Shown piece after piece: positions 1 through 33,480 of a DNA stretch of 64,000 bases. The notes below the pieces were generated by a model. It did not search any database. It was not told where the DNA came from and worked only from the letters and a program-made list of their open reading frames with translations. The position numbers and the translations under genes were made by a program. This stretch comes from Tubulanus polymorphus (taxonomy: Eukaryota; Nemertea; Palaeonemertea; Tubulaniformes; Tubulanidae). Within the stretch, counting starts at the first letter, position 1; each line of letters starts with the position of its first letter. Location of the stretch: NCBI RefSeq assembly GCF_964204645.1, contig NC_134030.1:15714447-15778446 (forward strand). Reading direction: 5' to 3'.

Positions 1-733
1 TCGCCTTAACTGTGAATGGTGCAGCAATGCCAAACGGGTCAAAAACTGATGAAACTTTGCTTAGCACTCCCCGTTTGGTAGCCGGCGTCATTGCTTCTCG
101 GACCTTGAAACCAATCGTGTCTGACTCTGGATCCCATATCACCCCGAGGGTACGTTCAGCGGGTAGCTGGTCGGCCATCAAATCGATCGACTGGCAGCTG
201 ACTTCGGATGGTGGTAATGCTTGCAGGACTTCACGACTGTTGCTCGTCCATTTCGTCAGTCTGAATCCACCACGTTTCACCAGCATCGTTACATCTTTTG
301 CGCGTTGAATAGCTTTGGCGGTCGAATTTTCGGACTTCAGAAAATCGTCCATGTAGAAATGTTTTCTAATGGCTGCGGCGGTTTCTGCGTCTACTTCTGA
401 TTCATTGTCTTCTGCTGTCTTTCTTAAGACGTAATTCGCCATGGCTGGAGAACACCGGGCGCCGAAGATTGTGACTTGCATTTCGTAGACGTCTGGCGGT
501 CTCGTGGTATCTAAGTCTCTCCACAGAAAACTGAGGGCTGGTCGGTCCTCTTCTCGAACTTTTACTTGGTGATACATCTGCTCGATATCGGCCGTTATAG
601 CAATCGGCTCTTCTCTGAATCTTAGCAGGATTCCTGGTAGGCTTTGGAGCAGATCTGGGCCGGTTATGAGTTGGTTATTCAGTGACACTCCCTGGTAAGT
701 GGCAGCAGCGTCAAATACTACTCTGATCTTCTT
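1..733 (-). pseudogene. BEL/Pao retrotransposon pol, reverse transcriptase segment (runs off window start)
   Basis: The minus strand stays in one frame from the stop at 734-736 to the window edge. It encodes the reverse transcriptase of a BEL/Pao LTR element. Visible motifs are RVVFDAAA at the start of the fingers/palm, the catalytic box FYMDDFL near 331-362, LGVIWD, and FDPFGIAAP near the edge, which is typical of the Pao-type RT/RNase H junction. It is in the same frame as the gag-protease reading frame upstream and is separated from it only by a single TAG codon. The stop lies inside the RT N-terminal region, not at a gag/pol boundary, so it looks like a disabling mutation rather than programmed recoding. 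The rest of pol lies outside the window. Confidence 0.85.
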
Positions 734-3295
734 CTAGTTTGGGTTTACGACGGCGTGATGCGGCAAATACCATCTCTTCTTCTGGTTAGAGGCAGCTTCA
801 AGTGGCGTAAGTTTACAGGCGTAGCCATCGGCGATGTAAGCTGCGAATGTCTGCTTATATGCTTCTGCTTTCACCGGGTCACGAATCAAGGACTTCTCGG
901 TCGTTTCTAATCGGCGGTAGGCCATAGGGCGATTATTCGGTAACTGCACGTCGTCGTTCTTCCACAGTAGGCTCGTCTCGTATCTGTCACCGAGACATCT
1001 CGTTCTCTCTCGCAGGATCTTATCGGCTCTGATATCTTCTCGGGATTCGGCTACGGGCTTGTCGTACTTCGTTCCGAAAGACTCCGTTGACCACCATGCA
1101 TCAAGCGTCTCGTGGATATTATCGGTCGACTTCCCGAGGCACAATACGTTTCTTTCAGTCGTCTGTTCGGTATTCGCCATATTGCCGGTAACGGACCAGC
1201 CAAAATCGGTTCTTACGGCAATCGGTCGGCCGGGCCCTGCTGTTCTGACTTCGTGCTGGATGATGGCTTCGATGACGTTGGCTCCCAGCAGAACTTCTAC
1301 TTGCCCGGATGACGTTTCTGGTATACAAATGTCACTGAAGTAGTTTTCGATTATCGTTTTCTTTATCTTCGGCATCGAAACGTTCAATCTGGGTACAGCC
1401 CACGCCTCGTTGACTTCTATGACGTTGTTGACGGCTTCGGGTCCGAGCGGTTTGATTTTCATCTTGAATTTAAGCGTCTTGTACCGTTCACCGTCATTTT
1501 CGACATTGCTCAACTTCAGAAATTTTCTTTCGCCGCTGATACCGAGTCGATCAACAAGTCTGCTACAGCACAGTGACGTTTGTGCGCCTGAGTCGAGCAG
1601 CGCATAGGTATCTTGGTGCTGACCTCCGTCGCCATAAAGTCTGACTGGAACGACTTGCAGTATGGCGTTTGACACGTTATGCTTCTGGCGGCTAGTAGTG
1701 TTGATTTCGGCTTCAGTCTCGTAGTATTCTTGGTTGTTGACGGATGATTCATCTGATAGACACACTGCAGCGACTTCTCTCTTCGGGTACACTCGTTGAC
1801 TCCCGTGTAGCAGGGGGTGATGTTTCCCCTTGCAGTTTGGCTGGGTACACGTTTTCTTGCCAGGACAGAATCTCACACGATGACCTTCTCCCAAGCAGCA
1901 GAAACATCTCTTTGACACTGCAATGTACGCTGATCTCTCGTTGACAGACTTCAGCTTAAACGTTCGACATACAGCGAGCTTATGGTCTTCGTTGCAGAGT
2001 GGACATTTAGCTTGATTCTGGGTCGTGAACATCGATCTAGTATTCGGTCGTGGTCGGTCGAAACTTCGAGTTTCTCTTGTTTCAGTCCGCGTGGCTGGAC
2101 AGTTCAATGATATCTTCACTTGCTGCGTCAACCATCTACTCAAGTCAGACAGGTTTGGGCGGCGTGGTTCAATCTCAAATACTTTCTTGCCCCATTCACG
2201 GTTGAGTTCTGGCGGTAGCTTCATTACGATTCGGCGAAGATTCTCTACGCTTGCTAGGTCACCCTGATAGCCGAGATTCTCAAGGGTCGTCACGGCACAG
2301 TGAAGGCTAGCTTGAAATCTTTCGAGCGGTCCTGCATCACAATTCTTCAGCGGGGGCTGTGTGAAAACTTTCTTGAGGCACGCTTTCACGACGTCTTCTT
2401 CTCGGCCGAATCTTTCTTCGAGTGATCTCAGAGCTTGGTGATATAGTCGACCTTCGTACATCATACCGGCAATCGTCTGCTGTGCGACACCGGTCACGGC
2501 TGACTGCAAGTGCGTGATTTTCTCTGTGTTTGTAAGATCTGGTTGGTCGTCGATCAGCGCCTTAAACAAACCATACCATTTCGGCCAATCGCTTGGATCA
2601 CCGTCAAACTTGTGCAAATGTATCTTCGGTACGGACTTTGAGAATAGATGGTTCGATCTTCTGCTTTGATTGGTTGGTTGGTTTCGGTTCGGCTGATATT
2701 CGGGTTGATACGACATGGACCAGTCAGGCGGCGGTATAACGGGCTGCATCGGCGGCAGAGTTCTATCGGGCTGTGACATCGGCAGGATTCTATCGGGCTG
2801 TGACATCGGCATGATTCTATCGGTCTGCGACATCGGCAGGATTCTATCGGGCTGCGACATCGGCAGGATTCTATCGGGCTGCGACATCGGCAGGATTCTA
2901 TCGAGCTGCGACATCGGCAGGATTCTATCGGGCTGCGACATCGGCAGGATTCTATCGGGCTGCGACATCGGCAGGATTCTATCGGGCTGCGGCATAGGCA
3001 GGATTTCGTCGTCGAAGTCACGTAGGCGATCAGCGTTTAAGACATCTGCGTCTTGGAGGCTGGCTTCTAGCGCGGCGGCGTCGGCTTCGTCTTGAGCCTG
3101 GGCTAGCTTGGCTTGACGAGTGAGTTCATCTTGTTGACGTTCTATTTCGAGGCGACGTCTCAGTTGTTTTACTTCAAGGGCCTTCTTCTGCGCACGTACG
3201 GTGGTTGCTCGTGACGCCGCTGACGAGGCCTTTGACATGACGGATGAGGCGTCGTCAGCTCTTGACTGCAGATAGGTCTTAATGCTAGCGACCAT
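734..3295 (-). CDS. BEL/Pao retrotransposon gag-protease polyprotein (853 aa open frame)
   Basis: This is the gag and protease part of a BEL/Pao element. Residues 1-95 are charged and probably coiled coil. Residues 98-182 are a nine-residue tandem repeat. Residues about 220-400 match the DUF1759-type gag domain (HLHKFDGDPSDWPKWYGLF region). Cys/His-rich zinc-knuckle-like motifs span 431-497 (CPLC, CFCC, GHRVRFC, C-X5-C-X3-HH). The aspartic protease active site is at residues 568-570 (DSG), followed by a DUF1758-like region. The C-terminal 40 residues enter the RT (WYLPHHAVVNPN) and stop at a TAG. The true N-terminus probably lies upstream in another frame (see 3346-3552), so the first methionine here is only the first one in the open stretch. 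Family assignment is firm; activity is unlikely. Confidence 0.88.
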   Translation of the reverse strand: MVASIKTYLQSRADDASSVMSKASSAASRATTVRAQKKALEVKQLRRRLEIERQQDELTRQAKLAQAQDEADAAALEASLQDADVLNADRLRDFDDEILPMPQPDRILPMSQPDRILPMSQPDRILPMSQLDRILPMSQPDRILPMSQPDRILPMSQTDRIMPMSQPDRILPMSQPDRTLPPMQPVIPPPDWSMSYQPEYQPNRNQPTNQSRRSNHLFSKSVPKIHLHKFDGDPSDWPKWYGLFKALIDDQPDLTNTEKITHLQSAVTGVAQQTIAGMMYEGRLYHQALRSLEERFGREEDVVKACLKKVFTQPPLKNCDAGPLERFQASLHCAVTTLENLGYQGDLASVENLRRIVMKLPPELNREWGKKVFEIEPRRPNLSDLSRWLTQQVKISLNCPATRTETRETRSFDRPRPNTRSMFTTQNQAKCPLCNEDHKLAVCRTFKLKSVNERSAYIAVSKRCFCCLGEGHRVRFCPGKKTCTQPNCKGKHHPLLHGSQRVYPKREVAAVCLSDESSVNNQEYYETEAEINTTSRQKHNVSNAILQVVPVRLYGDGGQHQDTYALLDSGAQTSLCCSRLVDRLGISGERKFLKLSNVENDGERYKTLKFKMKIKPLGPEAVNNVIEVNEAWAVPRLNVSMPKIKKTIIENYFSDICIPETSSGQVEVLLGANVIEAIIQHEVRTAGPGRPIAVRTDFGWSVTGNMANTEQTTERNVLCLGKSTDNIHETLDAWWSTESFGTKYDKPVAESREDIRADKILRERTRCLGDRYETSLLWKNDDVQLPNNRPMAYRRLETTEKSLIRDPVKAEAYKQTFAAYIADGYACKLTPLEAASNQKKRWYLPHHAVVNPN
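2752..3007 (-). repeat. 27-bp in-frame minisatellite inside BEL gag
   Basis: About nine copies of a 27-bp unit encode the peptide DRILPMSQP with small variants (one L for P, one T for P, one M for L). The array lies between the N-terminal coiled coil and the DUF1759 domain. Every unit keeps the frame, so length change by unit gain or loss would leave gag open. Confidence 0.9.
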
Positions 3296-3345
3296 CTGTG
3301 TGTGCGTCTCTTCGATTTCGGTGACGTATTTCTCTGCGGCGGCTG

Positions 3346-3552
3346 TCTCGTTTCATCGTTGAGGCTATCGACGTACGTGTCGTTGGCTATCGCGACATTT
3401 TCTAAGGCGTCTGCTAACTTCTGGACCAGCGACACCAACTGGGTTCGGCTGCCTCGAACTTCGATCAGCGTGGTCACTTGGTTGCAGATCCGGGTAAACG
3501 TTGCTTTTCTGCAGCCTCGGGTGGTCTTCAGTTTTCTGCTTTCTTCGGTCAT
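3346..3552 (-). pseudogene. BEL/Pao gag N-terminal segment, shifted frame
   Basis: An open frame starting MTEESRKL carries a segment typical of BEL gag N-termini (charged, with TRICNQVTTLIE and a helical region). It lies directly upstream of the main gag frame but in a different frame. The main frame is closed by a TGA just upstream of about 3345, and good gag-like sequence passes from one frame to the other there. The simplest reading is one small indel near 3330-3350 that breaks gag. Confidence 0.6.
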
Positions 3553-3873
3553 CTTCGTTGTCTTCTATCCGGTTCGAGGGACCAGTAAATGTTGGGAGAG
3601 TTCTCGGTCCAACACCACGGGGTTTCGGGCTCACTCCACTGACAGGCGATGGGAGTGAGGAAGCGAGCGAGGAGGACTGTATAGGTTCTCGGACAGAAGC
3701 AAAGCAAAGGCCGGGCAGAAGCAGAAGCCAGGCGGGTCGACAAGGCAGAAGCAAAGCCAGGCGGGTCACCAGACAGAAGCAAATTTAGCGAGTCGGCCAG
3801 AGTCACGTTCCCTGGTTGAAGCAGCAAGGCAGAGTCGTCGTCCTGTCCCTTGAAGCAGCCGTTCCTTTCGTCA
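3553..3873 (-). other. BEL/Pao 5' untranslated leader
   Basis: This is the sequence between the putative 5' LTR and the gag N-terminal segment on the minus strand. It holds imperfect GC-rich direct repeats (GGCGGGTCA-type, 3725-3780) and no convincing coding frame. A primer binding site could not be assigned by eye. Confidence 0.4.
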
Positions 3874-4163
3874 TGAAATGACTAACTTTAAGACTTTCTT
3901 CAGACTATAGCGATTTATTTAGCGGAGAGATGTGTACAGTCAGGCTTGCATAGATGAACTGATTTTACAGGATATTTGTTGCGGCTTTTATACAAAATCA
4001 GGCTGGGAACTAATTATGATTACAATCTGTTGAGAATGTTACAAACTGTCAAAATGTTACTATAAAAAGGATTAAAATATACAAACGAGAGAACAGGCAC
4101 AGTCTTAAACTAGTTAGAAACAAAATAATACACGTGTTATAGATTATGAAACGCGAGTTCACA
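3874..4163 (-). repeat. Putative 5' LTR of the BEL/Pao element
   Basis: On the minus strand this segment begins TGTGAACTCGC and ends CATTTCA. It contains a TATA box (TATAAAAG, plus-strand 3985-3992) and a downstream AATAAA (plus-strand 3914-3919) in the order expected of an LTR. It sits just upstream of the gag leader. Its partner LTR lies outside the window, so both boundaries are inferred from TG/CA ends only. Confidence 0.45.
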
Positions 4164-4194
4164 CGGGATCTCGGTGGTAACCAGGTCCACGCGC

Positions 4195-4423
4195 ACTATA
4201 GCCATCTGGCTTTGATGAACTGTTGTAACGGTTACAACAGTAATGATACATGTATAAATAATATATCACAGTGAAAACAGTACACCAAAGATGTAAATAT
4301 AAAAACAATAGATATATCTGTAATGATACATGTATAAATAATATATCACAGTGAAAACAGTACACCAAAGATGTAAATATAAAAACAATGAATATTCTGT
4401 AATAATACATGTATAGATAATAT
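4195..4423. repeat. AT-rich tandem array, left part (about 80-bp unit)
   Basis: Roughly two and a half copies of an AT-rich unit of about 80 bp contain the shared core CACAGTGAAAACAGTACACC followed by AAGATGTAAATATAAAAACAA. The same unit resumes at 5412, on the far side of the Penelope-like insertion. The long open frames across it are by-products of the repeat. Confidence 0.85.
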
Positions 4424-4524
4424 TAGTTGTCGAATAAACACTATTATCCGTGTAAACTGTAGATAAATGAAGAAATCCCACACTTCGAATTTAAAATTAT
4501 ACGATCAAATTTATTATTATGAAA

Positions 4525-4566
4525 CCACAACGTTTCGGCTGTTGACTAACAGCCATCATCAGGTGG
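4525..4566 (-). ncRNA. Hammerhead-ribozyme-like motif of the Penelope-like element
   Basis: Read on the minus strand, this segment has the conserved hammerhead core in order: CTGATGA, a perfect 7-bp stem (GGCTGTT / AACAGCC) with an AGTC loop, then GAAAC followed by GTT. Short CCAC / GTGG arms flank it and could form stem I. The GAAACGTT end leaves only a minimal self-complementary stem III, the arrangement reported for Penelope-like retroelements, where activity is expected mainly from dimers. The motif lies 3' of the GIY-YIG frame, which fits that family. Self-cleavage is not shown here. Confidence 0.7.
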
Positions 4567-4792
4567 AATGACCAGATATACAAGTAACAAAGCATATAAA
4601 CTCACAGGATCTAAAATAAAAGCAGTGTGTCAAAACTAAAGATTAACAGACCAAGCAATAAAACATCAAGGGGTACCGTGGAAACCACAGCAATTCTAAA
4701 CAGTTCAGAGTAAAAACAAATTATGTAACTAAGTGAAGTGGACTGAAGAGGGTGGCGATAACAGAGTGACACATAGTGACATCAACCCAAAT

Positions 4793-5239
4793 CTAATTAA
4801 GAGTTGATGTGTCTGGATAATAATTTTGGTTATGTGGAGAAAAACCAGTATCTAAATTAGTAGATAAATAGGATTTCGAAAGTTTACATATTAGGGCTGA
4901 TTCCACTATGTGTCTCTTATGAATATCTTTACAAGGATAAATAAGTTTCGAATTGTGAAAGTCAAATTGGTGATTGGTTGTAAAGACATGATTTGCTATT
5001 CCACTCTCAGGCTTTTGGTTGCGGATATCTATTTTGTGTTCTTTAGTACGCTGACTGAGATTGCGTCCCGTTTCGCCGATGTACATCATATTACAGTCTT
5101 TACATGGTATCTTATAGACCCCGGACTCAATTAGCTCACTGTTTGGTTTATTCTTGGTTAAAACATTAGTGAGTTGGTTATTATACTGAAAGACTAATCT
5201 AGTGTCGATGGTGCTTAATGTGGATTTAAAGCGTTCCAA
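4793..5239 (-). CDS. GIY-YIG endonuclease fragment of a Penelope-like element (148 aa)
   Basis: The frame carries a GIY-YIG nuclease domain: the GVYKIPC and MMYIGETGR motifs, then the downstream RTKEH and a helix with IANHVFTTNHQFDF. The CXXC (CKDC) between the two halves is the signature of the Penelope endonuclease, which nicks target DNA for reverse transcription. Frame-consistent coding continues upstream to about 5300, where a stop and unrelated sequence show the 5' truncation. No RT residues are present, so it is a remnant. Confidence 0.85.
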   Translation of the reverse strand: MERFKSTLSTIDTRLVFQYNNQLTNVLTKNKPNSELIESGVYKIPCKDCNMMYIGETGRNLSQRTKEHKIDIRNQKPESGIANHVFTTNHQFDFHNSKLIYPCKDIHKRHIVESALICKLSKSYLSTNLDTGFSPHNQNYYPDTSTLN

Positions 5240-5411
5240 AGTAGGTAAATACGGGATTATAATATTCTTTTGAGCTCTGCGTTTTGTGGTCAGGTCGTTA
5301 CTTCCAATGAATTGTTACGTGAAATTTGGTTGAGCGAAAACAATTTTTTTCGAACAAATGTTTGAATGAACACAATTCTGTTCGATTGAACGAAACACTT
5401 AATACTTTCAC

Positions 5412-5960
5412 ATAGATAATATATCACAGTCGAAACAGTACACCAAAGATGTAAATATAAAACAATAGATAGATCTGTAATAATACATGTATAGATAATA
5501 TATCACAGTGAAAACAGTACACCAAAGATGTAAATATAAAACAATAGATAGATCTGTAATAATACATGTATAGATAATATATCACAATATATAATATAAA
5601 AACAATAAATAGATCTGTAATAAATAATATCACACAATAAAAACAGTACACCAAGGATGTAAATATAAAAACAATAGATAGATCTGTAATAAATAATATC
5701 ACACAATAAAAACAGTACACCAAGGATGTAAATATAAAAACAATAGATAGATCTGTAATAAATAATATCACACAATAAAAACAGTACACCAAGGATGTAA
5801 ATATAAAAACAATAGATAGATTAATAACATAAATATAAATAATATATCACAGTGAAAACAGCAAAGGTGTAAACAATATGTAAAAATATCAAAAAAACAA
5901 TAAATAGATCTGCAATAGATAATCTATTTAGGTGAAAAAAGTACACCAAAGATGTGAAAA
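5412..5960. repeat. AT-rich tandem array, right part (70-85-bp unit)
   Basis: At least six copies of the unit found at 4195-4423 continue here with period changes between about 70 and 85 bp. Three consecutive copies at about 5620-5820 are nearly identical (ATAATATCACACAATAAAAA type), a sign of recent local amplification. The left copies carry the TCACAGTGAAAACAG variant. Confidence 0.85.
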
Positions 5961-6410
5961 AATCACTCTTTGTAAGTCATAAGCACACAAAAAGCACCAG
6001 TAGGAAATCAGCGTGAATGATATTATATGCGTGCAAGAATATGTTTACCAGTGAATGTTAAGTACATGTATATTAAGTTAAAACATGAATTTCATTACCT
6101 TTTCATATAAAGCTAAAAGAGATGAAGGTTAAAAAATTGAATATTAATTTTGATAATTTATACAACACAGTGCCATGTAAAGCTAACAAAGATGAAAGTT
6201 TAGATTGTACAGCTATATATTAATTTCAATTGCTATATGGTATTACAATGTGATAGAATTCAAATGCATAAGGAGGTTATATGTTTATAGGCGATGGGCA
6301 GAATAAGAAAAGGAATAAACCCACAACAAATGAAGATAAATCCACGAGACAAAAGAGATATAAGATGAATCCACAGATAAAAGAATGAAGATGAGTCCAG
6401 AAGCTAAAAG
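5961..6410. other. AT-rich spacer without gene
   Basis: There is no convincing coding frame. Short degenerate repeats (AAAGCTAAAAGAGATGAAGG-like, and GATGAATCCAC-like at 6330-6400) are visible. The last of these lead into the minisatellite. Confidence 0.5.
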
Positions 6411-8510
6411 ATAAGATATCTACTTTCACACAACAACTTACACTTACGCTCGATGAGATCTACTTTCACATAACAACTCACGCTCGATTAGATCTACTAT
6501 CACGTAACAACTCACGCTCGATGAGATCTACTTTCACACAACAACTTACACTTACGCTCGATGAGATCTACTTTCACATAACAACTCACGCTCGATGAGA
6601 TCTAATTTCACACAACAACTTACACTTACGCTCGATGAGATCTACTTTCACACAACAACTTACACTTACGCTCGATGAGATCTACTTTCACGTAACAACT
6701 CACGCTCGATGAGATCTACTTTCACACAACAACTTACACTTACGCTCGATGAGATCTACTTTCACATAACAACTCACGCTCGATGAGATCTACTTTCACA
6801 CAACAACTTACACTTACGCTCGATGAGATCTACTTTCACGTAACAACTCACGCTCAATGAGATCTACTTTCACACAACAACTTACGCTCGATGAGATCTA
6901 CTTTCACACAACAACTTACACTTACGCTCGATGAGATCTACTTTCACACAACAACTTACACTTACGCTCGATGAGATCTACTTTCACGTAACAACTCACG
7001 CTCGATGAGATCTACTTTCACACAACAACTTACACTTACGCTCGATGAGATCTACTTTCACATAACAACTCACGCTCGATTAGATCTACTTTCACACAAC
7101 AACTTACACTTACGCTCGATGAGATCTACTTTCACATAACAACTCACGCTCGATGAGATCTACTTTCACACAACAACTTACACTTACGCTCGATGAGATC
7201 TACTTTCACGTAACAACTCACGCTCAATGAGATCTACTTTCACACAACAACTTACACTTACGCTCGATGAGATCTACTTTCACACAACAACTTACACTTA
7301 CGCTCGATGAGATCTACTTTCACATAACAACTCACGCTCGATGAGATCTACTTTCACACAACAACTCACACTTACGCTCGATGAGATCTACTTTCACACA
7401 ACAACTTACACTTACGCTCGATGAGATCTACTTTCACATAACAACTCACGCTCGATGAGATCTACTTTCACACAACAACTTACACTTACGCTCGATGAGA
7501 TCTACTTTCACGTAACAACTCACGCTCAATGAGATCTACTTTCACACAACAACTTACGCTCGATGAGATCTACTTTCACACAACAACTTACACTTACGCT
7601 CGATGAGATCTACTTTCACACAACAACTTACACTTACGCTCGATGAGATCTACTTTCACGTAACAACTCACGCTCGATGAGATCTACTTTCACACAACAA
7701 CTTACACTTACGCTCGATGAGATCTACTTTCACATAACAACTCACGCTCGATTAGATCTACTTTCACACAACAACTTACACTTACGCTCGATGAGATCTA
7801 CTTTCACATAACAACTCACGCTCGATGAGATCTACTTTCACACAACAACTTACACTTACGCTCGATGAGATCTACTTTCACACAACAACTTACACTTACG
7901 CTCGATGAGATCTACTTTCACATAACAACTCACGCTCGATGAGATCTACTTTCACACAACAACTCACACTTACGCTCGATGAGATCTACTTTCACACAAC
8001 AACTTACAGTTACGCTCGATGAGATCTACTTTCACGTAACAACTCACGCTCAATGAGATCTACTTTCACATAACAACTCACGCTCGATGTGATCTACTTT
8101 CACACAACAACTTACACTTACGCTCGATGAGATCTACTTTCACGTAACAACTCACGCTCAATGAGATCTACTTTCACATAACAACTCACGCTCGATGAGA
8201 TCTACTTTCACACAACAACTTACACTTACGCTCGATGAGATCTACTTTCACACAACAACTTACAGTTACGCTCGATGAGATCTACTTTCACGTAACAACT
8301 CACGCTCAATGAGATCTACTTTCACATAACAACTCACGCTCGATGAGATCTACTTTCACACAACAACTTACACTTACGCTCGATGAGATCTACTTTCACA
8401 TAACAACTCACGCTCGATGAATCTACTTTCACATAACAACTCACGCTCGATGAGATCTACTTTCACATAACAACTTACGCTTGATGAGATCAACTACCAC
8501 ACAACAACTA
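6411..8510. repeat. Minisatellite of interleaved 40-bp and 34-bp units with higher-order structure
   Basis: The array is built from a long unit (GATCTACTTTCACACAACAA + CTTACACTTACGCTCGATGA, 40 bp) and a short unit (34 bp, with CATAACAACTCACGCTCG or CGTAACAACTCACGCTCA). The long unit differs from the short mainly by a 6-bp internal duplication (CTTAC-ACTTAC). Each unit contains GATC inside AGATCT. Rare variants (GATTAGATC, CTCACACTTAC, CTTACAGTTAC) recur in the same order, giving a higher-order repeat: a block starting at 6839 recurs at 7511, a 672-bp offset. No coding role is apparent. Confidence 0.95.
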
Positions 8511-8717
8511 ACACTCGGAAGGCATCCTCACCTAAAAATCTTAATAATGGACCCAATACCTTGAAATGCAAAAAAGGGAAATGAGTGACCGACTTGAAGA
8601 CTTCCCTGGAAAGAGAGAGTTGCTACACTTTGAAAAAGTCACAGAGAAAGCACCCTTCCCACGTTTTAGTTCCCAGGTACTTGCTCCACAACTTTCTCAA
8701 AGCAAAATCTAAGGAAT
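8511..8717. other. Downstream flank of the SGNH-C48-MULE gene
   Basis: This unique sequence lies between the minisatellite and the minus-strand stop codon at 8718. It holds the 3' untranslated region or 3' flank. No clear AATAAA on the minus strand and no terminal inverted repeat matching the 5' side were found by eye. Confidence 0.4.
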
Positions 8718-11700
8718 TTACATGTTCGGGTCACAGGAAAGACAAAACCATTTCTCAGTCAATGGTTCATCAGTCAAACCAACACATTTCCAGTGAAACC
8801 ATTGGTCACATGTATCGCACCCAATTGAGTGATGTTTATTTTGGTTAGCGCTACAGTTCTGTTTGCATACAGGACATCTCCATTGTCTTTGAATTTTTGT
8901 TTCAGCTATAAATTCGGATGGACATTTCTCTTTCTTCTCTTTACAGACACTTTTGAGTTTTAGCTTTGCAATATTTTGTATACCAGGGGAGCCAAACGTA
9001 TTCGTTAATTTCTCCAAATCATCTTCATTGTTACAATTATTTACCTCTGATATTTTTTGCGTGATGTTCTTATTCCTAATCTTTGATGATTTTATTCTTT
9101 TGACTCTATTGAATTTATGTACAAGTTTAACATGTTTTTCTAAATGAGCTATACTAGGAAAAGATAAATTTACGCCTGATGTCCAACATAATGCGCACAT
9201 AACAAGATTTAAGTCATGGACAATAGATATATGCTTATCAAGCTCCGGACGACTTGAACAAATATAAGGGGATTTAGAATTATTTTTTATGCATAATGAA
9301 CATAAAACTGTCTTAGTTGTATTGACAGGAACATTTTTATTTGTTTCTTTCAGGTCTGAAGTAACCTCACGTGTTCTTATATCAACAGTTGAGTCTTCAT
9401 TATCAATATCATCTATATTATCATTAGCTAAATAGGAGTTTTCATTTTTACGATTCACTTGCAATTCATTTTCAGCTGGTTTATTAAGTAACCGTTCACT
9501 AATTACATTTTGGGACAACTCAATTTTTTCATCTAGCACTGTTTTTCCTAATTTATATAATGCATCTGTGACAGTTTTATTAAATGAAACACCTCTTTTT
9601 GATAATCTTGTTCTTTTTCTACCACCATGTCGGTCACTCCAAGAAGCCTGGGGAAATGAAACATTAGGACGATAGGGATCATAGACAACTGACTCCTCAG
9701 AAGATACTAAATCATATTTGCTGTCTTTAACAGCTCCACCAAGACGTCGGGGGCCAAGATTGTGAGGCTGCCGTTTGGCTAGTTTGCCTGAAAGAAGTCG
9801 AACCCCTAAATGGCTTTCATCATGTAAGATTTTCAATATCTTGCCTTCTTTTATAAATTCAAGCTCTTCACTTGTTGCTGAATGTGAAACAGCTTTCAAT
9901 TCATCAATCAAATGACTAGTAAGAACTTGCCGAGGTGGATAATTGTTGACACCACTTTCAATTTTATGCGACAAGTAAGACGACAGCAGTTCATCAACTC
10001 TGTTTATTTTCTTGTTGTGAGCCATTAGGGCAAATAGATGTTTGCAGAAGTAAGGTTGTCCCTTCATAATGAATGCTTCGCAGCTACAAATACCCAGTTG
10101 AAGATTAACTATATGAGAATTATCTCCTATTTTCTCTTGTAATGCATCCGGAACCAAGGTGAATAAATACTTAAAATAAAGTCTAGCAGCAAGTGAATCT
10201 AAGTCTCCAATATAACTGCGACATTTACTGATTATATCATAACTGTGTTCATTAGAGATCTGATTAAAATCACAGGCGAGAAACTGACTACTTACAGGCG
10301 TACTTGATGGTAATCGATCTTCTAATATTTGAAGGTCATTATCATTAGTGACACTTTCAAAAAATTGATCAGACAGTGGCTCATCTGACGTATCTTCGGA
10401 CCCACATATATTTCTATTTGACTTTCTGCGAGGACTATTAAAAATACCCCATCCATTTCCATCAGAGGCAACCAAAAATCCACTCTTTAACAATTCAAGT
10501 GCTCTATCACAGGTTCCTCGCACAAATGTCTTCTTTCGTATAGTTCGAATCTTTTCTGAAGATTTTTGGTAATTAAAATTGGCCGCTTTTAAATCATCAT
10601 CAAATACATAACGGAGCATTTTTACTACAAAAATTGATATCAAACGATTGAGATGATTGCTGAAATATGTTGAATCTATATCTTTGAATTTTCGTTCAGT
10701 AACATTGTCTGTCATAAGAAGGGGATTATGACGTTCAGTAGCTATGGTGCGATATATCGGCTCAGCATTAAATATTTCTGACCATGTCTCAGATGAAAAC
10801 CAATTTGTCTCGAGATAATTCATCAAATTTTTCTTTGAGTCATCACTTAGTAAGTTTGCAGGGATATTATTCTTTATAAAATTGAGAAATTCATTAGCAA
10901 GGAAAGTGCGGGAAGGTTTATCCCATGAGCGCATAACACATTTAAATCCCGTCTCTAATGGCCTCATAAGCAATTTTAATTGTGAATCATCATTCAAAGT
11001 ACGTCTAATGCACTGTAAAGCATGAAAATTACAGAGAACAGATAGCAAACCATTTAATGATGCAACCCTTTTAAGGGCAGTATCTTTGTCATGTTGTACA
11101 CGAGGGGAAAGGGGTTGAATGAAAGAACATGGACGGATTGAGAAAAAACCACTGCCATCATTGTATATATAGAACTCTCTAGGATGTTGACAATCTATTC
11201 TTTGACAGGGTGTGTTAGCACATAAAATCTGAAGTGAGAGAGCATGCGAATCTGCATCATCAGAATTACTTACTGAAGCTGCTGCTATACGACCTTCGTT
11301 TAAACTATCAGTAAATGTAATAAAGCTGGTTTTGAATCTAACTGCATTGAAATCATGTTTAACATCCATTCCTATAACTGAACGGCCAAATTTTGATAGA
11401 TATGAAAGATTTTTTTCAGGAGCTAATACAAAATGATAATTTCTTTTCAGACTCCGATCTCCCCTTTGAAATAAAATCACAGATTCCACTTCAGTCTCTA
11501 ATAGTTTTTCAGTATTGCGCCAATCTGAGCCAACCAAAGGGATATCATCTTGGCTTCGCATACTTTTTTTAACAGCCTCCCTATCGATATAACGCAATCG
11601 ATCACTTACTTGCTTTAATGTATGATTTACTGAGGAGCTTTCTTCATTTTCATTTGACAAATGGACTTTCTGTTGATTGTTTGTAGCAGAAAGAACTTGT

Positions 11701-14061
11701 TTTGGAGTAGCTTTAAGTACAATTCGTTGTTGATCCCACTTATCTCTGGTTGCTAGGGATGGACGTTTATTTGATTGTACAGGAACACTCTGATGATATT
11801 TACCATTATCGCAATGTTTATATATCTTCCATGTTGAAAGGTCATCATTGTATAAGACAAGCTTTATCTTCCAATTGCACACTAGATGAGGGTGATGAAG
11901 GCGTTTTGGTTGATCACTTAATCTTGCCTGGGCTGGTCGATCCTTTTTTGTTCTCAATTTATAATTGTAGCAAATAACACAAAGTTTCCTACCATAGGTG
12001 TCTAAAACCCATTTTTTACTAGACGCAGATGTACAGTGCTCACAAATGTTAGGCAATTCTAAATTCAGATGACAAGCAGTGCAGTTCATGGCTGTTATTG
12101 ATCTATCTAAACCACTAAGTAATTCACCACATGCTGAGCGACAATCATTTGACTTAGATGAACATGTTATGATCATTTCAACAACTTTTTTCCCATGAGG
12201 TTTTTCATTGATTCCTGATATGAACTCATATTTTTCATCAAATCTGTGAGTTTTCCCCCATCCAGCCTTTTCCGTTACAGATACCTTCATAGCTGTTTGA
12301 TTACCTGGATAAATAGCACGCACATTTTTGTCAAACATATAGACTTTTTTGGTGATATCAAATGTAAATTTACTGAAGTGATTTTTGGTTTCAACACCAG
12401 TTTCTAATTCACCATCTTCTATCCACTGAATAGTAGTGAATTCTCGAATCCAATTACAAGCCTCTCCATTGTTCAAAAACTCATTGATTCTATCCATTGA
12501 TTCCTTATCATCCTTACCAGCATCCGAGCATGGGAATGTTTTATGTAACTGCTTTCCCGTTTTCAAAGTGATTTTCAATTCTAATACGTGATTACTGTTT
12601 CTGCACCGATGATGAATTTTTGGTTTCCCTTTAATTAATTCGCTTAACTTGTCCAAACATTTTTCTTCCACTAAAGGGCTGCTTCTAGTAGTGCCTTGAG
12701 GTTTCTTGAGGTTAGCGTGCGTATACGATTCTTTTTTCCTCTTTGATACTGGTATTTCAAAGTCATCATCATCATTATCAGAGATTGTGATTATCTTAGT
12801 ACCTTTCCTTTTCAGTTTAGATGCAAGACCATTCTCTCTTGGTATAACCGAAGAATCAGTTGAATAAATATGACTTAACTGAATTGATTGTCCAATTATC
12901 CAGTCAATAAGAACTTTGCGTATAAAATGTGAATGTTTGCTTATGTCATGTAAATATCCAATTTTTGAAGATATAGGGCTGAAACTAGTAAGATTTGAAA
13001 ATTCCTCAATATCCTGGGCCGCAAGACATCCTATGAGTACAGCAGATGGACCACAGACAGAACTACATGTTTGAATAGGATAAAGAGGTGCACAAGATCT
13101 ACCACAATTGACAAATCGGCGGCTTGCGTTATGATGTTCTGTATCATGGCAACAAAGAAGAGTGGGCAATGGGAGTTTAAAATTTGAACATAGCGCGTTG
13201 ATATTAGCCACTAATGCTATTGGACAAGACCAGCCCAATGTGTCCAAATAAAAGAGCTTGTTGTTTACCTTATCATAAACTGCAAGGGCCCAATGATTAG
13301 CATTTTGAGCATTTAAAACAGAAACATTATCAATGCAGCCAACATGAAGGAAAAAGATCATTCTATCACATTGTTCAATAGAACCAAACCTTTTTAAAAG
13401 ACGACCAGATATTGACAGGGAAAATGTCTGATTCATAACATCAGCAAACACACGAGGAGAGGTATGATTAATCAAACTTGCAAAGGCGTGCATAATCGAA
13501 CCTTCATACCATTTATCTAAATACATAGTTTGTAATTCATCAACTTGAGCACTATAATTTAAAAGTTGAATGAATTTGTCATCAGCCATTTTAGTTACAC
13601 ACTCAAAGAAATATTTCAAATTGTTAGCACTGTGGACAGTTTCAGTGTGAGGGTGGTTGGAGGGTTCAGAATCAAACCAGTCACATACTTTCTTAAATTC
13701 ATTTTTCTTTGCTTTGACAGTAGTTAAGATATAAATAAACCTGTTTATCTCACCCAAACTAAAGCATCCATAATCGAGTTTTACATGCGCATGCCCTGCT
13801 CCGGTTGTCAGTCTATCTTGAAGTTGAGTTTTGATCTGGTTAAGCTGGTTTAAAGGTGGTGTGTATCTCGATTGATCTGCTTTCTTGCACTCCTCAGACG
13901 AACAAATAACAAAATCTACATTAGTTGATAATCTGGTTTCTGGAATATTGAAAGTTGAAAAATACTCTAGCCCATCACTTGTCTCATTACTTGTCGTATC
14001 TGCATTCATGTCGCTGGTTTCATCATCACTGATCATTATAATTTCCTCATAGCCACCACCG
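8718..14061 (-). CDS. Exon 9: C48 protease, GATA finger, DDE core, SWIM, C2H2 and PHD modules (1,780 codons)
   Basis: This is a single uninterrupted 5.3-kb exon, entered through the acceptor TTTCAG just upstream of CGGTGGTGG at 14061. The C48 protease has the His of NANHWALA (H659), the Asp of YLDTLGW (D676), the oxyanion Gln of IQTC (Q733) and the nucleophile of SSVCGPSA (C739). The GATA-type finger is C-X2-C-X17-C-X2-C with the conserved W and a GRKLCVICYNYKL second half. The transposase core shows IGMDVKHDFN, QHDKDTALKR, LCNFHALQCIRR and TDNVTERKFK, the pattern of MULE/ZSWIM-type transposases. The SWIM finger is CSC-X11-CKH. The PHD finger ends the protein (CPVC, CDTCDQWFHWKC, CLSC). All key residues are present. 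Confidence 0.85.
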
Positions 14062-16807
14062 CTGAAACTTGAAAATAATTGCTATCATTATCAATCAGGG
14101 AGCTATTATTGTTACATGACCAATCAAATTGATATTTACCTGGATACAAAATTATAAGCTTCCTTATCCTTGCGCGTAGAATCCTGCTCTGTAGCATCTC
14201 TCAGCAGTTTTTCACTGAAATGAAATTCATATTCTTGCATTATTTACATTCATAATTCCTAAGATTTACCAAGCAACAGCATGGTTACAGTAAAAGCACT
14301 TAAGTAGATTAACAAGAAGAAACTAAGGAGAGAATAATAATTTGTTTGAATAATTCATAGCAGCTGTTATGTATTGTACCTTATTCATATTGATAGAAGA
14401 AACAGTCATACATAATTTCTTAAAATTAACAATGTTTTTTTCTTTACCTCAGTACATGGTGATCTATCACATGATCTAACAGTTCCATATCAGTTTCATA
14501 ATGAAATCTGTTGCACCAACACTCCAGTTTCCTAGCAGGTTGATGAACGGCAGTACATGTATATGTTGAAGTCTTCTCACCAACCCAAATAGCCTTCTTT
14601 AACTTCTCAACAGTTAAGCAATCATACCTGAAAAATTAGATTAAGGGCAAAATTTGCAGTGTAGAGACAGACATAACTTAGATTCTGAATTTATTTAGGT
14701 ACCAGTATTATGTTTATTTACCTGTTTGTTGTTCTAAAATCAATGTTCTTCACTATTGTTGGTTTTCTCATATGTCGTCTACTGAGATGTTTCTTCTTTG
14801 ATGGTTGAATATTTTTTGAGTCGTCAGTTGTCACGCGTGTAATTTTTCTGGTTCGTCTCCACGAGATGACTACACTCTCGGATTTTGGTTCAGCTGAAAT
14901 CAATGAAAATTTGTTCTCAAGATACTTTTCCACGTTTCAACATAACTGAAAATGTCATATTAAGCATCTTTTTAAATGCTTACATAATGCTGGTTGAAAA
15001 GCACAAACACTCGAATAAGAATGTAGAAATTCATCAGTTACTTTCACAGGACGCGTGCAATTAGATAAGGGAGGATAATTGTAGTCATAGTCATCTACAT
15101 CAAGTTGCTCCTCACACACTCGAATTGGTTCCCTTCAATTAAAAATCAAGAAATTAAACATTTATCCGTGCAATAGAAATCATGTCACTTTGTGAAAAGG
15201 TTGATATCATAGAGTTCAACATTGCACTGACACCCTACCACTTGAAAATTTGCAAACAGGACTTTTTGAAGAATTTTCGAAAATAAAATGTGAAAATCAA
15301 TATTCTGCCACCAAAACCTGCTAACACTACTGGACTGCTAATTAGCAAACTTGTTACTGGCTTTCTTTATGCATGTATGTGGCACAAAAATATTTGTGAG
15401 TTTTGATTTTTACTTTGTCGGTTCTACAGCCAACTATCGTCCAGCTTGTGGTGCCATCTCTGCGAGTAGCAAATTATTAACCCTGTAATTTAATTGGGGC
15501 CAATCTCTGGCCTGTATTTGGCCTAATTGGACGATGATCTGTTAGAATATATTACATATATTTTCAGTGATCTTAGACTTAGTATGTAAGTTTCCCATTA
15601 TCGGTCGATGTCTACGAGATAGAACCTAATAATTGACAGTCAAAGAGGAGTCAGCTATCAACTTCCTAACTGGCTAACTTACGGTTTAATGTTTTCGAAG
15701 AGAGAAGCTGCCATCTTCTTGATACCAAGCCGACTGAAATGAAGTCCATCGGCGCACAAAAAGTCATTCAAATATTCATCGAAGTCATCATGACTGATGA
15801 ATGTTGTAAAACCATAAACCTAAAACAGAAAATAAAATGCCATTATAAATTGGTGACAAGTCATTTCAGCTTAAACATATCAAAGACATGAAATATATGC
15901 CAAAACAATCACAATTTACCTGGCAAAGTTCTTCAAGCAGCTGATTAGCTCTCCTGATCTCCATATTCATTCGATCAATGAATGCCCGATGATCTCTTCG
16001 CTCCTTCGCCAAAACTACGTGCCTAGTCTCCCTCCTCAACAATATACCTATAAAACATACAAAAAATGAATTATATCAACAACAATAATTTTCAATTTTG
16101 CAACTAGTGAAAACTTAACAAAGCCTACCTGATACATAAATCTGGCAATGTGGATTGAATCTCCGGAGCCTGTTGAATAGGCACACCATCTCATCCCTCA
16201 CATTCACTGGACTTCGGCCCTATAATGTTAATTTATATCAATTATCATCACTGAAAGTTAAGAAAAAGTTGCAATTAATGGCACTCTTTTTTTTTCTAAG
16301 TGTCTAATCAAGTGTTAACATTAGCCAAATCAAGTGTTCAAGACAAAAACAACACAATTTCTCATTTAGTAAGAGTCAATAGATTTAAGACACTGAATAT
16401 TCACTAACTTTATACCTTAAAGTTAGAAATGGGCCTACTACACTAATACAGTAAGCTCAATGTCATTACGGTATATTTATGTGAAAGAATGATAATCTAC
16501 TAAGAAGCGTGCAATTATAAGCAGAAGAAACCTGAATAAGATTATTCGTGCCACCATGGATAACAATGCAATCTGCACCCGAAACCAGTTGTCCAACACT
16601 CGAACCTGCTGCCTCCAGAATCTCCGCAACCGTGCTCCCCGACCGCCAGAACAAATTCTGCCACTCCACTACATCGATTAGGGTTGATCCTCTCCGACTA
16701 CAGCAACCAGCCATATACTTCAGCATACTATCGCTGAAAAAAAGAACAGACGGCGGCAACCCAGCACCAGGACTGGGAGCAGCTACCTTCCTAAAACTTA
16801 AAGACAT
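8718..16807 (-). CDS. Nine-exon gene for a 2,183-aa SGNH hydrolase - C48 protease - GATA finger - MULE-like transposase - SWIM - C2H2 - PHD protein
   Basis: Nine exons join in frame across GT-AG introns: 16807-16532, 16219-16129, 16047-15920, 15819-15683, 15132-14984, 14893-14722, 14627-14448, 14214-14140, 14061-8718. The total is 6,552 nt with one stop at the end. Domains by residue: SGNH hydrolase about 18-205; a Cys/His-containing linker about 300-400; Ulp1/SENP-type C48 protease about 590-760; GATA-type finger 1076-1100; MULE-like DDE core about 1290-1540 (D1302, D1394, E1525 proposed); SWIM finger 1728-1744; two C2H2-like fingers about 1990-2051; PHD finger 2132-2179. The set fits a very large MULE/KDZ-like DNA transposase, or a host gene derived from one. 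No terminal inverted repeats were recognised, so mobility is open. No internal stop or frameshift is present, which argues for recent activity or selection. Confidence 0.85.
15683..16807 (-). CDS. Exons 1-4: N-terminal SGNH/GDSL-type hydrolase domain
   Basis: The first four exons encode an SGNH fold. Block I is FFSDSML (nucleophile S27, with the usual Gly before Asp-Ser replaced by Ser). Block III is HGGTNN (85-89). Block V is ADGLHFS (D189, H192). SGNH enzymes hydrolyse esters; related domains occur in Oskar and in several mobile-element proteins, sometimes without activity. The start ATG at 16807 gives a short leader before the domain, and no upstream in-frame exon was needed. Phases are 0, 1, 0 and 2 at the four donors, and each matches the next acceptor exactly. 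Confidence 0.8.
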
Positions 16808-17604
16808 GATTAATTATCAAAACAATACAATACAATAATACACCGAGAGAGAGGTGGAAATTGGATAGCAGGCTATCACTAATTTCTATCTTCTAGAATG
16901 AAACAGAAAGCCTAAGTAAAGGGACCTACAAACACGAAAAAAAAACTTGAGCACGAACTAGGGCTACGGGGACCACAAGTGCGTTTTAAAAAATTCTTCA
17001 CCTAAAAGCTAAAAATAAACGTTAATTAGAATAAAAAGTATATAAAACTGACCGTATACGTAATCTATATAAACACTTTGATGCGTATGTGTATGTAGAT
17101 CTGAAGTATCGCGCTACCAATTGCTCGAAATTCGCTCAAAATGTAGCACGAAAAGCAGCTCTAAGTTACCGCAATAAGGGTGACCAAACAAACTGCGCAT
17201 TCCCGCTGCAAAAGTTCACGCAGGTTCATTTCAGCAGCGTACTGACATGACCCACCATTTTGAAAAACTGACTTGTAGTGACGCCTGCCCACTCGACTGT
17301 TTTCTGGACTTAGAGAATTTCCCCAACACATACATCATGCGCATGCGTTAAAAACGGAGACATTGGAAACATTACGGTTTTTGCCTTCGTCTCAGAGAGA
17401 AAACAAACGACAGAAAAGTATCAGGTGATTATCGATAGCCTACAACGGTACACACAGTTGACAAACAGTGTTAGGCCTGTGCCGGTTGGTGCGTACTGGG
17501 ACTAAATATACTGGTTGGTCAGTTGGTTCGGTTGTGAAGTGTGGAAGCTAAGATTATAAGAAAGCCTACCGGTATTTATTTGTCTATAGGCCTATTATAT
17601 AGAA
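16808..17604. promoter_or_regulatory. 5' flank of the SGNH-C48-MULE gene with an NRF1-like palindrome
   Basis: No coding frame is seen. This stretch is less AT-rich than its surroundings and contains TGCGCATGCGT at 17338-17348, which matches the NRF1 palindrome commonly found in animal promoters. A second, similar site (CGCGCATGCGTA) lies at about 17840. The minus-strand gene starts about 530 bp from the first site, so this is the likely promoter region. Confidence 0.35.
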
Positions 17605-22200: not shown

Positions 22201-22510
22201 AGGCACCTATACTTATGACAGACGCAAGTATGAAGGGACTCGGAGCTAGCCTTTTACAAGAGGAAGACGGATCCAAATTACTTAAACCCGTGGCTTACGG
22301 TTCGAAGACTTTGTCTCAGTCGGAGAAGAACTACGCGTGTATCGAGCGCGAACTCCTTGCAATTGTCTTCGGAGTGCAGAAGTTTCATACATTCCTGTAC
22401 GGCAGACCATTCAGAGTCATAACAGACCATAAGCCCCTAGTAATGATAACTCAAAAAAGTCTAACGAGTGCTCCACCACGATTACAGCGAATGCTCCTCA
22501 AGGATACAAC
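22201..22510 (+). pseudogene. Ty3/gypsy RNase H fragment
   Basis: The frame begins in the RNase H domain (ILMTDASMKGLGASLLQ, YACIERELLAIVFGVQKF, VITDHKPLV). These are the catalytic D, E and D positions of a Ty3/gypsy RNase H. RT is missing to the left, where the palindromic element lies. Near 22497 a few bases are lost and the frame shifts into the next ORF, so pol is broken. Confidence 0.85.
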
Positions 22511-23911
22511 ATGAATTTAGAATACAGGCCAGGAAAAGAAATGACTCTTGCAGACACGTTGTCAAGACTGCCTAACGTCAAAAATCAGGAGCAAATCGAA
22601 CTAGACATAAGAGTAGACTTTGTCAGGTTCACCTCAGAGAAGATCGTACAAGTGAGACACGATACAGCCGCCGATGCTGTACTCTGCAAATTGATGGACG
22701 TCATACTCACTGGCTGGCCGCGGTCCATCAAAGAACTACCCAAAGAACTCAGACCGTATTGGAGTGTTCGTGACGAACTTTCAGTCGAAAACGGAATTAT
22801 TTTGAAGGCAGCAAGAATTGTAATGCCAATGATACTGAGAGACGAGATGCTAAGAAAACTGCATTACGGACATATGGGCATAGAAAAGACCAGACTACGG
22901 GCCAGAGACTCAGTATACTGGCCAGGCATCACTAGAGATATCGAAAACGTAGTAAAAAACTGCCGAGAATGCCCAAAACATCTAGCATCGCAGCCGCAAC
23001 AGCCATTGATTCTCCAGGAAATACCTGGAAGGCCTTGGGAAATGGTTGGAACGGATCTCTACGAGTTGCACAACGTTAATTGGCTGATTCTCGTAGACTA
23101 TTATAGTAAGTTTCCTGTCGTTAGGAAACTTCCCTGTCCAAGTCCCAGCAAGTTAGTTGTTAGTGCAACAAAGCAGGTGTTCGCCGAATACGGTGTACCA
23201 ACTGAGGTTAGATCAGATAACGGACCTCATTTCGACAGCAAGGAATATAAATGTTTTGCCAGCGAATGGGGATTCTCGCATCATACCAGCTCGCCAAGAT
23301 ATCCGAGATCGAATGGTATGGTTGAACGCACCATTCGTACTGTGAAAACGTTGCTGAAGAAAGCAAAACAAACCAATCAAGATCCTGACCTGGTGTTACT
23401 GGCATTGAGAGCAACGCCAATTGATAGTAAGTTACCAAGTCCAGGTGAATTGTTAACCGGACACAAGCTGGCGACACACCTCCCCGCGAAAATAATCAAC
23501 ATTGACCCAGACCGGGATGATGTACGCAATCGCTTGTTAGATCGACAACAGATGATGAAAAAACACCACTATAAGCATGCCCACCAGCTGAAACCACCAT
23601 CAATTGGAGACAGGATCACATACCAGAAAGAAACTGGCGGATCATGGCTACCAGGAACGGTTATACAAAAAACACCAAAGCCACGATCATACGTCGTCCA
23701 AGATGATAACAACCAGCGTAGGTTCCGAAGAAATCAAGTTCACATCAGACCAGTTGGTGGAATGCAACAAGACAAGACTAAGAGCAAATCTGTCCTCTTT
23801 GCTCCTGAGCTTGTCGAGACACAACCTAGCAGACCCATCATTGGCCCCAAAACAAACCATACAACTAGGTCAGGTCGGGTCTCAAAACAACCCCAACGAT
23901 TAGATCTGTAA
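22511..23911 (+). CDS. Ty3/gypsy integrase (466-codon open frame)
   Basis: The start carries the end of RNase H (YRPGKEMTLADTLSRLPN). The integrase zinc domain is H118-X2-H121 with C151-X2-C154. The catalytic core has D182 (GTDLYE), D236 (SDNGPHF) and E272 (NGMVERTIRT), so the DDE triad is complete. The C-terminal region has a basic GPY/F-like segment (GDRITYQKETGGSWLPGTV). It inserts retrotransposon cDNA into the genome. The frame is open to its own stop, but the copy is not autonomous because RT and gag are absent. Confidence 0.9.
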   Translation: MNLEYRPGKEMTLADTLSRLPNVKNQEQIELDIRVDFVRFTSEKIVQVRHDTAADAVLCKLMDVILTGWPRSIKELPKELRPYWSVRDELSVENGIILKAARIVMPMILRDEMLRKLHYGHMGIEKTRLRARDSVYWPGITRDIENVVKNCRECPKHLASQPQQPLILQEIPGRPWEMVGTDLYELHNVNWLILVDYYSKFPVVRKLPCPSPSKLVVSATKQVFAEYGVPTEVRSDNGPHFDSKEYKCFASEWGFSHHTSSPRYPRSNGMVERTIRTVKTLLKKAKQTNQDPDLVLLALRATPIDSKLPSPGELLTGHKLATHLPAKIINIDPDRDDVRNRLLDRQQMMKKHHYKHAHQLKPPSIGDRITYQKETGGSWLPGTVIQKTPKPRSYVVQDDNNQRRFRRNQVHIRPVGGMQQDKTKSKSVLFAPELVETQPSRPIIGPKTNHTTRSGRVSKQPQRLDL

Positions 23912-31741: not shown

Positions 31742-33480
31742 TCTGACCTACCTAGTTAGTTACCTAATCGTTGGTGGTAAGCTTTTTATAATCGGATGGG
31801 CATATACCAACGTTAGGGATGACAAGGACCAAAACACGGTTGAAAAAAGTAACACTTCAAAAATATACTTTCTATCCACTTCAGTCCACAATTAATGGCT
31901 TAATTCACAAACTAACACAGGTACCTTTCGAAATAATCCAATTCTATGTATGTTTCGAGTAATTAATCAACATTATTTTGAGAAATTAATTAATTTCCTT
32001 ACAAATTTCGCCATTGGCCGCCATTTCTCTGTATTGCACATGTGGCATGATAAGCCAAGGGGACCTACAAGGATTTAGATAAAACTTTCAAGACGAAACG
32101 ACAATTTTTATTTTTGATGGTTTTCCAACCTATATTTCAAATCTTCGTGTTTTCCATTATAAATAATGAAATAATAAATTCTGGTAAAAGAAAAATGTGA
32201 ATTAGTGTTGATTTCTTAATATTTTTCAATTTCGTCGTTTCGCTTCGTTAGTTTGTGCTGTTGTCCTGGCCTCAGTCCACAGGTGCCAGCACCTCCAGTA
32301 ATTTTCAAAATGGCAGCTGTTGACTCTACGGAAATTTACTCTCACTTTACGGCCGATTTGCACATGGATTAAGATCGTCAGGTGAGGTGTTATAGGTATC
32401 AGACAAACTACGAATCTGTTGTGTGTCGATTACAACAAAAATTTGACGGATATCTTAAGAGACAATGAAATGCCAGGCAAATTACTCGTCAGTCAAATTG
32501 TCAGTCAAATTGGCTGACGAAGATTTCATACAAAAATGACCTTCCCATTCCTGACTGTGGTTTGTGAAAATATCCGATCGTGAAACTAAACCACAGACAG
32601 GTTACTGACTATGACCTACCTAGCTAGGCCTGAAAATCTATGAAGAGATGGGCCTACGTTGTGCATCTTTGTAGTCTGTATTTCTATATACCGGTATCTT
32701 CGTCAGCCAATTTGACTGACGAGTAATTTGCCTGGCATTTCATTGTCTCTTAAGATATCCGTCTAATTTTTGTTGTAATCGACGCACAACAGATTCGTAG
32801 TTTGTCGGATACCTATAACACCTCACCTGACGATCTTAATCCATGTGCAAATCGGCTGTAAAGTGAGAGTAAATTTCCGTCGAGTCAACAGCTGCCATTT
32901 TGAAAATTACTGGAGGTGCTGGAACCTGTGGACTGAGGCCAGGTCAACAGCACAAACTAACGAAGCGAAATGACGAAATTGAATGAATTAAGTAATCAAC
33001 ACTAATAATTCACATTTTTCTTCATCCAGAATTTATTATTTCATTGTTTATCATGGAAAGCACGAAAGTTTGAAATACATGTTAGAAAACAATCAAAAAT
33101 AAAAATTGTCGTTTCGTCTTGGAAGTTGTAGGCTACAATCCTTGTAGGTCACCTTGTCTATCATGCCACATGTATGCAATACACAGAAATGGCGGCCAAT
33201 GGCGAAATTTGTGGAGAAATTAATTAATTTCTCAAAATAATGTTGATTAATCATTCGAAACATACATAGAATTGGATTATTTCGAAAGGTAGCCTACCTG
33301 TGTTAGTTTGTGAATTAAGCCATTAATTGTGGACTGAAATGAATAGAAAGTATATTTTTGTAGTGTTACTTTTTTCAACCGTGTTTTGGTCCTTGTCATC
33401 CCTAACGTTGGTATAAGCCCATCCGATTATAAAAAGCTTACCATCAACGATTAGGTAACTAACTAGGGGTAGTCTAACCT
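31742..33480. mobile_element. Long foldback palindrome (about 770-bp arms, about 150-bp centre)
   Basis: The left arm begins near CTAGTTAGTTACCTAATCG and runs inward to CAGTCAAATTGGCTGACGAA at about 32515. The right arm is its reverse complement from TTCGTCAGCCAATTTGACTG (about 32698) out to CGATTAGGTAACTAACTAG. Matches are imperfect but continuous. The left arm has one extra GTCAGTCAAATT. No transposase frame is present, so this is a non-autonomous foldback-type element. Confidence 0.85.

Follow-up and report, generated by a model that had tools for sequence, protein, structure and literature searches.

A Rehavkus-like transposon of Tubulanus polymorphus whose predicted transposase carries an N-terminal SGNH esterase

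We analysed a 64,000-nucleotide stretch of the genome of the nemertean Tubulanus polymorphus (assembly GCF_964204645.1, contig NC_134030.1, here C6, positions 15,714,447 to 15,778,446), referred to below as the window. It very probably holds a DNA transposon of the Mutator-like element (MULE)/Rehavkus kind that moves by cut and paste and looks autonomous, and whose single spliced gene is predicted to encode a transposase of 2,183 residues. The cut-and-paste mechanism is well founded, resting on matching terminal inverted repeats (TIRs), an exact 9-bp duplication of the target site, other copies in the genome, short derivatives, conserved catalytic residues and a ratio of nonsynonymous to synonymous substitution (dN/dS) well below 1 in all parts of the gene that were set against a diverged copy. 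The N-terminal SGNH esterase appears to be a new part, known to date from this subfamily alone and with no precedent found for it in the Rehavkus group or among MULEs; the roles of this domain, of the PHD finger and of the Ulp1-like domain are ones that we infer.

Results

Ends and extent of the element

A match to a second copy upstream of the gene runs to window position 17384 and stops there, and a genome search with this end sequence located its inverted counterpart outside the window, 4.2 kb beyond the left edge (Table 1). Both TIRs begin with GCAAAAACCG and lie inside an exact target-site duplication (TSD), CTTCGTCTC. The full element measures 21,602 bp, nested insertions included. Between the 3' end of the gene and the 3' TIR lies a minisatellite array that is also present in a diverged copy on C39, and a second minisatellite further towards the 3' end is apparently split by nested insertions. 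One insertion into the 3' minisatellite is a long terminal repeat (LTR) retrotransposon of about 7.2 kb (C6:15711447-15718685, window 1-4239), with 655-bp LTRs that are 99.8% identical, Pao-like as judged by eye only. Another, of about 1 kb within the same minisatellite (window 4421-5410), is a GIY-YIG-like fragment with stops, its motif read by eye, perhaps from a Penelope-like element.

Gene model

Exon 9 alone lies in a single 1,787-codon open frame (8718-14081, minus strand), compared with 194 codons for the longest stop-free frame obtained by chance when the window was shuffled 50 times at the mononucleotide level. The predicted splice of nine exons, with all introns GT..AG and in phase, gives exactly 2,183 residues, closed by a single terminal stop (16807-8718, minus), which reproduces from the genomic sequence the nine exons, phase agreement and lack of internal stops reported in an earlier, sequence-only reading of this DNA. 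In an alignment of exons 2-9 with the C39 copy, the splice sites retain GT or AG, except for the exon 3 acceptor, which falls inside a 60-nt gap; the exon 3 donor is interrupted by a 7-nt gap. Identity to C39 is 0.81-0.90 for exons 2-7 (exon 3 contributes only 68 aligned nt) and 0.52-0.82 for the intervening introns. Exon 8 aligns poorly (0.65) and its intron is 0.83 identical. All gaps within exons are multiples of three.

Table 1. Features of the transposon and its gene (window positions; residues in full-protein numbering)
Feature	Position	Strand	Remarks
Transposon, part within the window	1..17384	-	whole element C6:15710229-15731830
Right TIR (element 5' end)	17268..17384	-	117 bp; 115/117 identical to left TIR at C6:15710229
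9-bp TSD, right copy	17385..17393	.	exact; left copy C6:15710220-15710228, outside the window
Exon 1	16532..16807	-	SGNH esterase start; SDS block (Ser27), GGTNN block (Asn88)
Exon 2	16129..16219	-	SGNH
Exon 3	15920..16047	-	SGNH
Exon 4	15683..15819	-	SGNH end; DGLH block (Asp189, His192); in-frame TAA inside donor
Exons 5-8	14140..15132	-	linker region
Exon 5	15132-14984	-	
Exon 6	14893-14722	-	
Exon 7	14627-14448	-	
Exon 8	14214-14140	-	
Exon 9	8718..14061	-	transposase proper (Ulp1-like, GATA, DDE, SWIM, C2H2, PHD)
Ulp1/C48-like protease	12861..13568	-	His659, Asp676, Gln733, Cys739
GATA-type zinc finger	11931..12044	-	C-x2-C-x17-C-x2-C
MULE-like DDE core	10671..11378	-	Asp1302, Asp1394, C-x2-H from Cys1413, Glu1525
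SWIM-type finger	10026..10094	-	C-x-C-x(n)-C-x-H; motif and conservation
Two C2H2-like fingers	9117..9302	-	motif seen directly; conserved in sister family
PHD finger	8733..8876	-	nearest solved relative TAF3
Minisatellite, period 34+40 (74) bp	6418..8509	+	between gene 3' end and 3' TIR
Second minisatellite, 69-80 bp	4240..5958	+	element 3' part

The SGNH esterase part

The SGNH/GDSL profile (PF13472) scored above the Pfam cut-off (38.4 bits against 32.9), the match starting at profile position 40. The Ser, Gly, Asn and His blocks of an SGNH/GDSL hydrolase are all present: Ser27, Asn88, Asp189 and His192 were located, and the Gly block was identified by visual inspection. The nearest solved chain is that of ZfL2-1, at an E value of only 0.26. 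A genome search with this part, at an E-value limit of 1 and with all 12 candidates scored, listed no copies other than those on C6, C7 and C39. Against C39, dN/dS of SGNH exons 2-4 is 0.12 over 94 codons, with 17 changes synonymous and 10 not, a figure that leaves out exon 1 and the serine within it. For the remaining parts of the protein the corresponding ratios are 0.34 (exons 5-7), 0.21 (Ulp1), 0.33 (middle), 0.19 (DDE-SWIM) and 0.30 (C-terminus). The esterase exons have thus been conserved about as strictly as the transposase during diversification of the subfamily, which argues against a passenger fragment.

The transposase part

For the DDE core, hhalign comparison with a pooled alignment of MULE transposases (14, picked from 109 PF10551 hits) gave an E value of 1e-5 and a score of 52.5, against a maximum of 25.7 in 100 column shuffles and 11.4 for the reversed alignment. 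The match spans all three acids and the C-x2-H, and by this comparison the region reads as a MULE-type DDE catalytic core. The Ulp1-like domain, compared with six C48 sequences (picked from 23 hits in the same genome), scored 43.0 (E 3.8e-5; maximum of 100 shuffles 28.1), and matched yeast Ulp1 over the whole chain (E 0.0016). No match to the MULE set was obtained with three other parts of the protein, nor to the C48 set with three. The four residues of the Peptidase C48 catalytic set, His659, Asp676, Gln733 and Cys739, are invariant across the three lineages aligned; the His and Asp are also supported by alignment, and the Gln and Cys by motif, assigned on a spacing that we presume for this family.

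The GATA finger matches GATA-1 (E 2e-5). The PHD finger lies above its Pfam cut-off (28.5 against 24), matches the TAF3 PHD finger at E 2e-10 and retains the TAF3 cage tryptophan. No Pfam match above the cut-off was found for exons 5-7. The domains named in the sequence-only reading were recovered by different routes: SGNH and PHD by Pfam search, C2H2 by its motif, and C48, MULE, GATA and SWIM by profile comparison or motif, the plain Pfam scans having missed the first three of these and left SWIM below the cut-off.

Copies and relatives

A genome search with the protein gave at least 47 matches; only the best 26 of 135 candidates were scored, and copy counts are thus lower bounds. The closest among the matches listed is a copy on C7, with protein pieces 87-98% identical, some with stops, and DNA identity of 96.5-98%. 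Its exons 1-8, the SGNH exons included, were detected by tblastn; about 0.2 kb is missing inside exon 9 and the match stops short of the 3' end of the gene. The pieces on C39 are 84-86% identical, two of them with stops. Exon 2, a portion of exon 3 and exons 4-7 were recognised there, the region of exons 3 and 4 in two copies; exon 1 was not found within the C39 stretch searched. Further pieces among the matches listed lie on C10, on C8 and at other sites on C6.

A sister family is represented by at least eight stop-free matches at 47% protein identity, plus broken or partial ones at 35-50%. Its elements are 11.8-12.6 kb long with 44-bp TIRs (three of the eight stop-free copies aligned), are about 99.8% alike, and have exact 9-bp TSDs in all three copies checked (CGTATGGCA, GATCAAATC and GTTGAAAAT). 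The sister frame, of 1,918 codons, has the same order of parts and an early Met of its own, and tandem repeats lie between the open reading frame (ORF) and the 3' end. SGNH exons were not found in the one sister copy (B) searched by tblastn, where the best E was 0.08 or worse save for short chance pieces. In sister copies A, B and C both 44-bp ends finish in palindromic TGACGTCA, which we take to be a CRE-like site; it could drive transcription.

A genome search with the TIR gave at least 40 matches (the best 40 of 150 candidates scored). Four of the five examined are short non-autonomous elements with both ends, 734-786 bp apart, and flanks identical at 9/9, 8/9, 8/9 and 7/9 positions; the fifth stretch has one end only. 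No inverted pair was found in two further stretches, L024 and L047. The ends and copies bear out the suggestion of a recently active giant transposon, on the strength of the TIRs, the exact TSD, the 96.5-98% identical C7 DNA and the near-identical sister copies.

Among viral contigs, 311 stretches fit a pattern and none was confirmed as a relative. A giant C48-bearing frame at C4:26328541 was also set aside as a relative, being absent from the matches listed for the window protein and having UCH and C48 as its Pfam domains. The stretch around it (L027, C4:26325301-26331700) has both domains above the Pfam cut-offs in a giant open frame, and a C48 match lies at C2:24206705 in a frame of equal length; these may belong to a further transposon whose protein combines two deconjugating enzymes.

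Comparison with known systems

As far as the parts of the papers cited here and below describe them, Rehavkus elements are an outgroup of MULEs with a 9-bp TSD, TIRs of 26-400 bp, one ORF, a PHD finger in the transposase and, ahead of the 3' TIR, a minisatellite, and the hosts named are arthropods and annelids (PMC6446971). Four of these five features are present here, namely TSD length, TIR length (117 bp; 44 bp in the sister family), PHD finger and minisatellite, and the single predicted spliced frame, read from genomic sequence alone, fits the fifth. The MULE-like DDE core and the large size (Rehavkus-1_TC is 9.5 kb; PMC10218199) are further likenesses, and the 9-bp TSD falls within the 8-11 bp of the MULE superfamily (Table 1 rows of PMC6446971). 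The main text of PMC6446971, in contrast, mentions none of SGNH, Ulp, C48 and GATA. We regard the element as a probable Rehavkus-like MULE, placed by published features rather than by Rehavkus sequences.

The Ulp1-type protease is shared with Mutator transposons of hydra, lancelet and plants, whose description, in the part consulted, names no SGNH domain (PMC2836005). Ginger1 transposases carry Ulp1, joined by PHD in one of the families listed (PMC2836005), but have a Gypsy-integrase-type core, an H2C2 finger and a GPY/F motif, whereas the window core aligns with MULEs; Ginger1 was compared by description only. Ulp1 and PHD domains in transposases are thus not new (PMC2836005, PMC6446971), as the sequence-only reading had stated. 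Its further suggestion that the full combination is undescribed holds for the SGNH fusion, since none of the open-licence papers listed describes, in its title or at the start of its abstract, an SGNH/GDSL esterase fused to a DDE transposon, whether MULE or not, but not for Ulp1 with PHD, already published in Ginger1. Mobile-element SGNH esterases are known from ORF1 of the CR1-like long interspersed nuclear element (LINE) ZfL2-1, and GDSL ORFs from LTR and Penelope-like elements (PMC3905857, PMC5408684), but these are retroelements and not DDE transposons. Fish Helitrons associated with texim SGNH genes (PMC4021074) share the pairing of SGNH with a DNA transposon; there, however, texim is a separate gene and the element is of the rolling-circle type.

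Discussion

In our model the GATA, SWIM and C2H2 zinc fingers would bind the transposon ends, and the DDE core would carry out cutting and insertion, staggered by 9 bp. Tethering of the complex to histone H3 tails would fall to the PHD finger, and the Ulp1-like domain might strip SUMO-like modifiers off the transposase or nearby host proteins. The SGNH domain is probably an active esterase or deacylase serving the life cycle of the element. That the esterase is fused to the transposase and under selection, so that transposition by cut and paste involves a lipid or acyl hydrolase, is a proposal to which we give slightly less than even weight; nuclear-envelope access, deacylation of host factors and spread between cells are conceivable roles.

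Several observations weigh against parts of this account. Splicing is predicted here from genomic DNA. Plain Pfam scans recover neither C48 nor MULE, and the DDE signal depends on the pooled alignment, because single MULE groups gave little (four of five reached only E 0.11 to 0.48 in hhalign, and the remaining one, L035, matched across 18 columns at E 0.014). The match to yeast Ulp1 falls to an E of only 0.019 for the single domain, and neither Ulp1 alignment extends to the Gln and Cys. Another TAF3 cage position, by the numbering that we presume, is not retained, which makes histone binding by the PHD finger uncertain. The structure prediction proposed in the sequence-only reading proved uninformative: single-sequence models of the Ulp1-like and DDE parts had mean predicted local distance difference test (pLDDT) scores of 33.3 and 34.6 and were not used. 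Against the close C7 copy, dN/dS lies between 0.31 and 0.91; these ratios are noisy and very few changes stand behind them, with 1 synonymous change and 3 others for Ulp1 (0.81) and 3 and 10 for the C-terminus (0.91). Since this copy has stops and lacks the 3' end, present activity of the subfamily is not established.

A different arrangement of the same exons would give two proteins per element, a stand-alone SGNH esterase from exons 1-4 and a transposase starting at an early Met of exon 9, as in the sister family. The TAA within the exon 4 donor is in frame both in the window and in C39, and a message left unspliced would terminate the esterase there; the sister ORF does have its own early Met, with no SGNH exons found beside it in the one copy searched. 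Yet C39 keeps donor and acceptor of the exon 4-5 intron and of later introns, its exon gaps preserve the frame, and exons 5-7 evolve as coding sequence (dN/dS 0.34). We consider this arrangement unlikely; two-protein and fused forms could coexist.

The apparent lack of SGNH exons in the sister copy would also fit a captured host gene fragment without function, in the style of Pack-MULEs, gene capture by MULEs being published (PMC6431247, in part). Such a fragment is harder to reconcile with the low dN/dS of exons 2-4, the retained SGNH blocks of the window copy and the search that, at E up to 1, listed no genomic relative of these exons beyond the C6, C7 and C39 copies, and we regard it as improbable. 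Least credible of all is the domesticated, transposase-derived host gene raised in the sequence-only reading, which could account for the intact frame and for the few close copies among the matches listed; we reject it on the TIRs, the exact TSD and the several dispersed copies and derivatives with transposon ends.

The contribution of retroelement esterases to mobility is still open (PMC3905857, PMC5408684, in the parts consulted). With an esterase joined to a cut-and-paste transposase at low dN/dS, a shared step independent of reverse transcription becomes testable, and the presence in one genome of a family that has the esterase beside another that apparently lacks it offers a natural comparison. 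The element also extends the features reported for Rehavkus. If the fusion is real, gain of an esterase by a DNA transposon would parallel the independent gains in LINEs, LTR elements and Penelope-like elements.

Lastly, other parts of the window contain an open frame that reads by eye as a retroelement integrase (22433-23911), a 385-codon frame with DUF7869 above the cut-off (36430-37584) and, at 31751-33467 and 33588-36010, nested long inverted repeats and a 0.5-kb direct duplication that has inverted repeats on its flanks; these may be further mobile elements.

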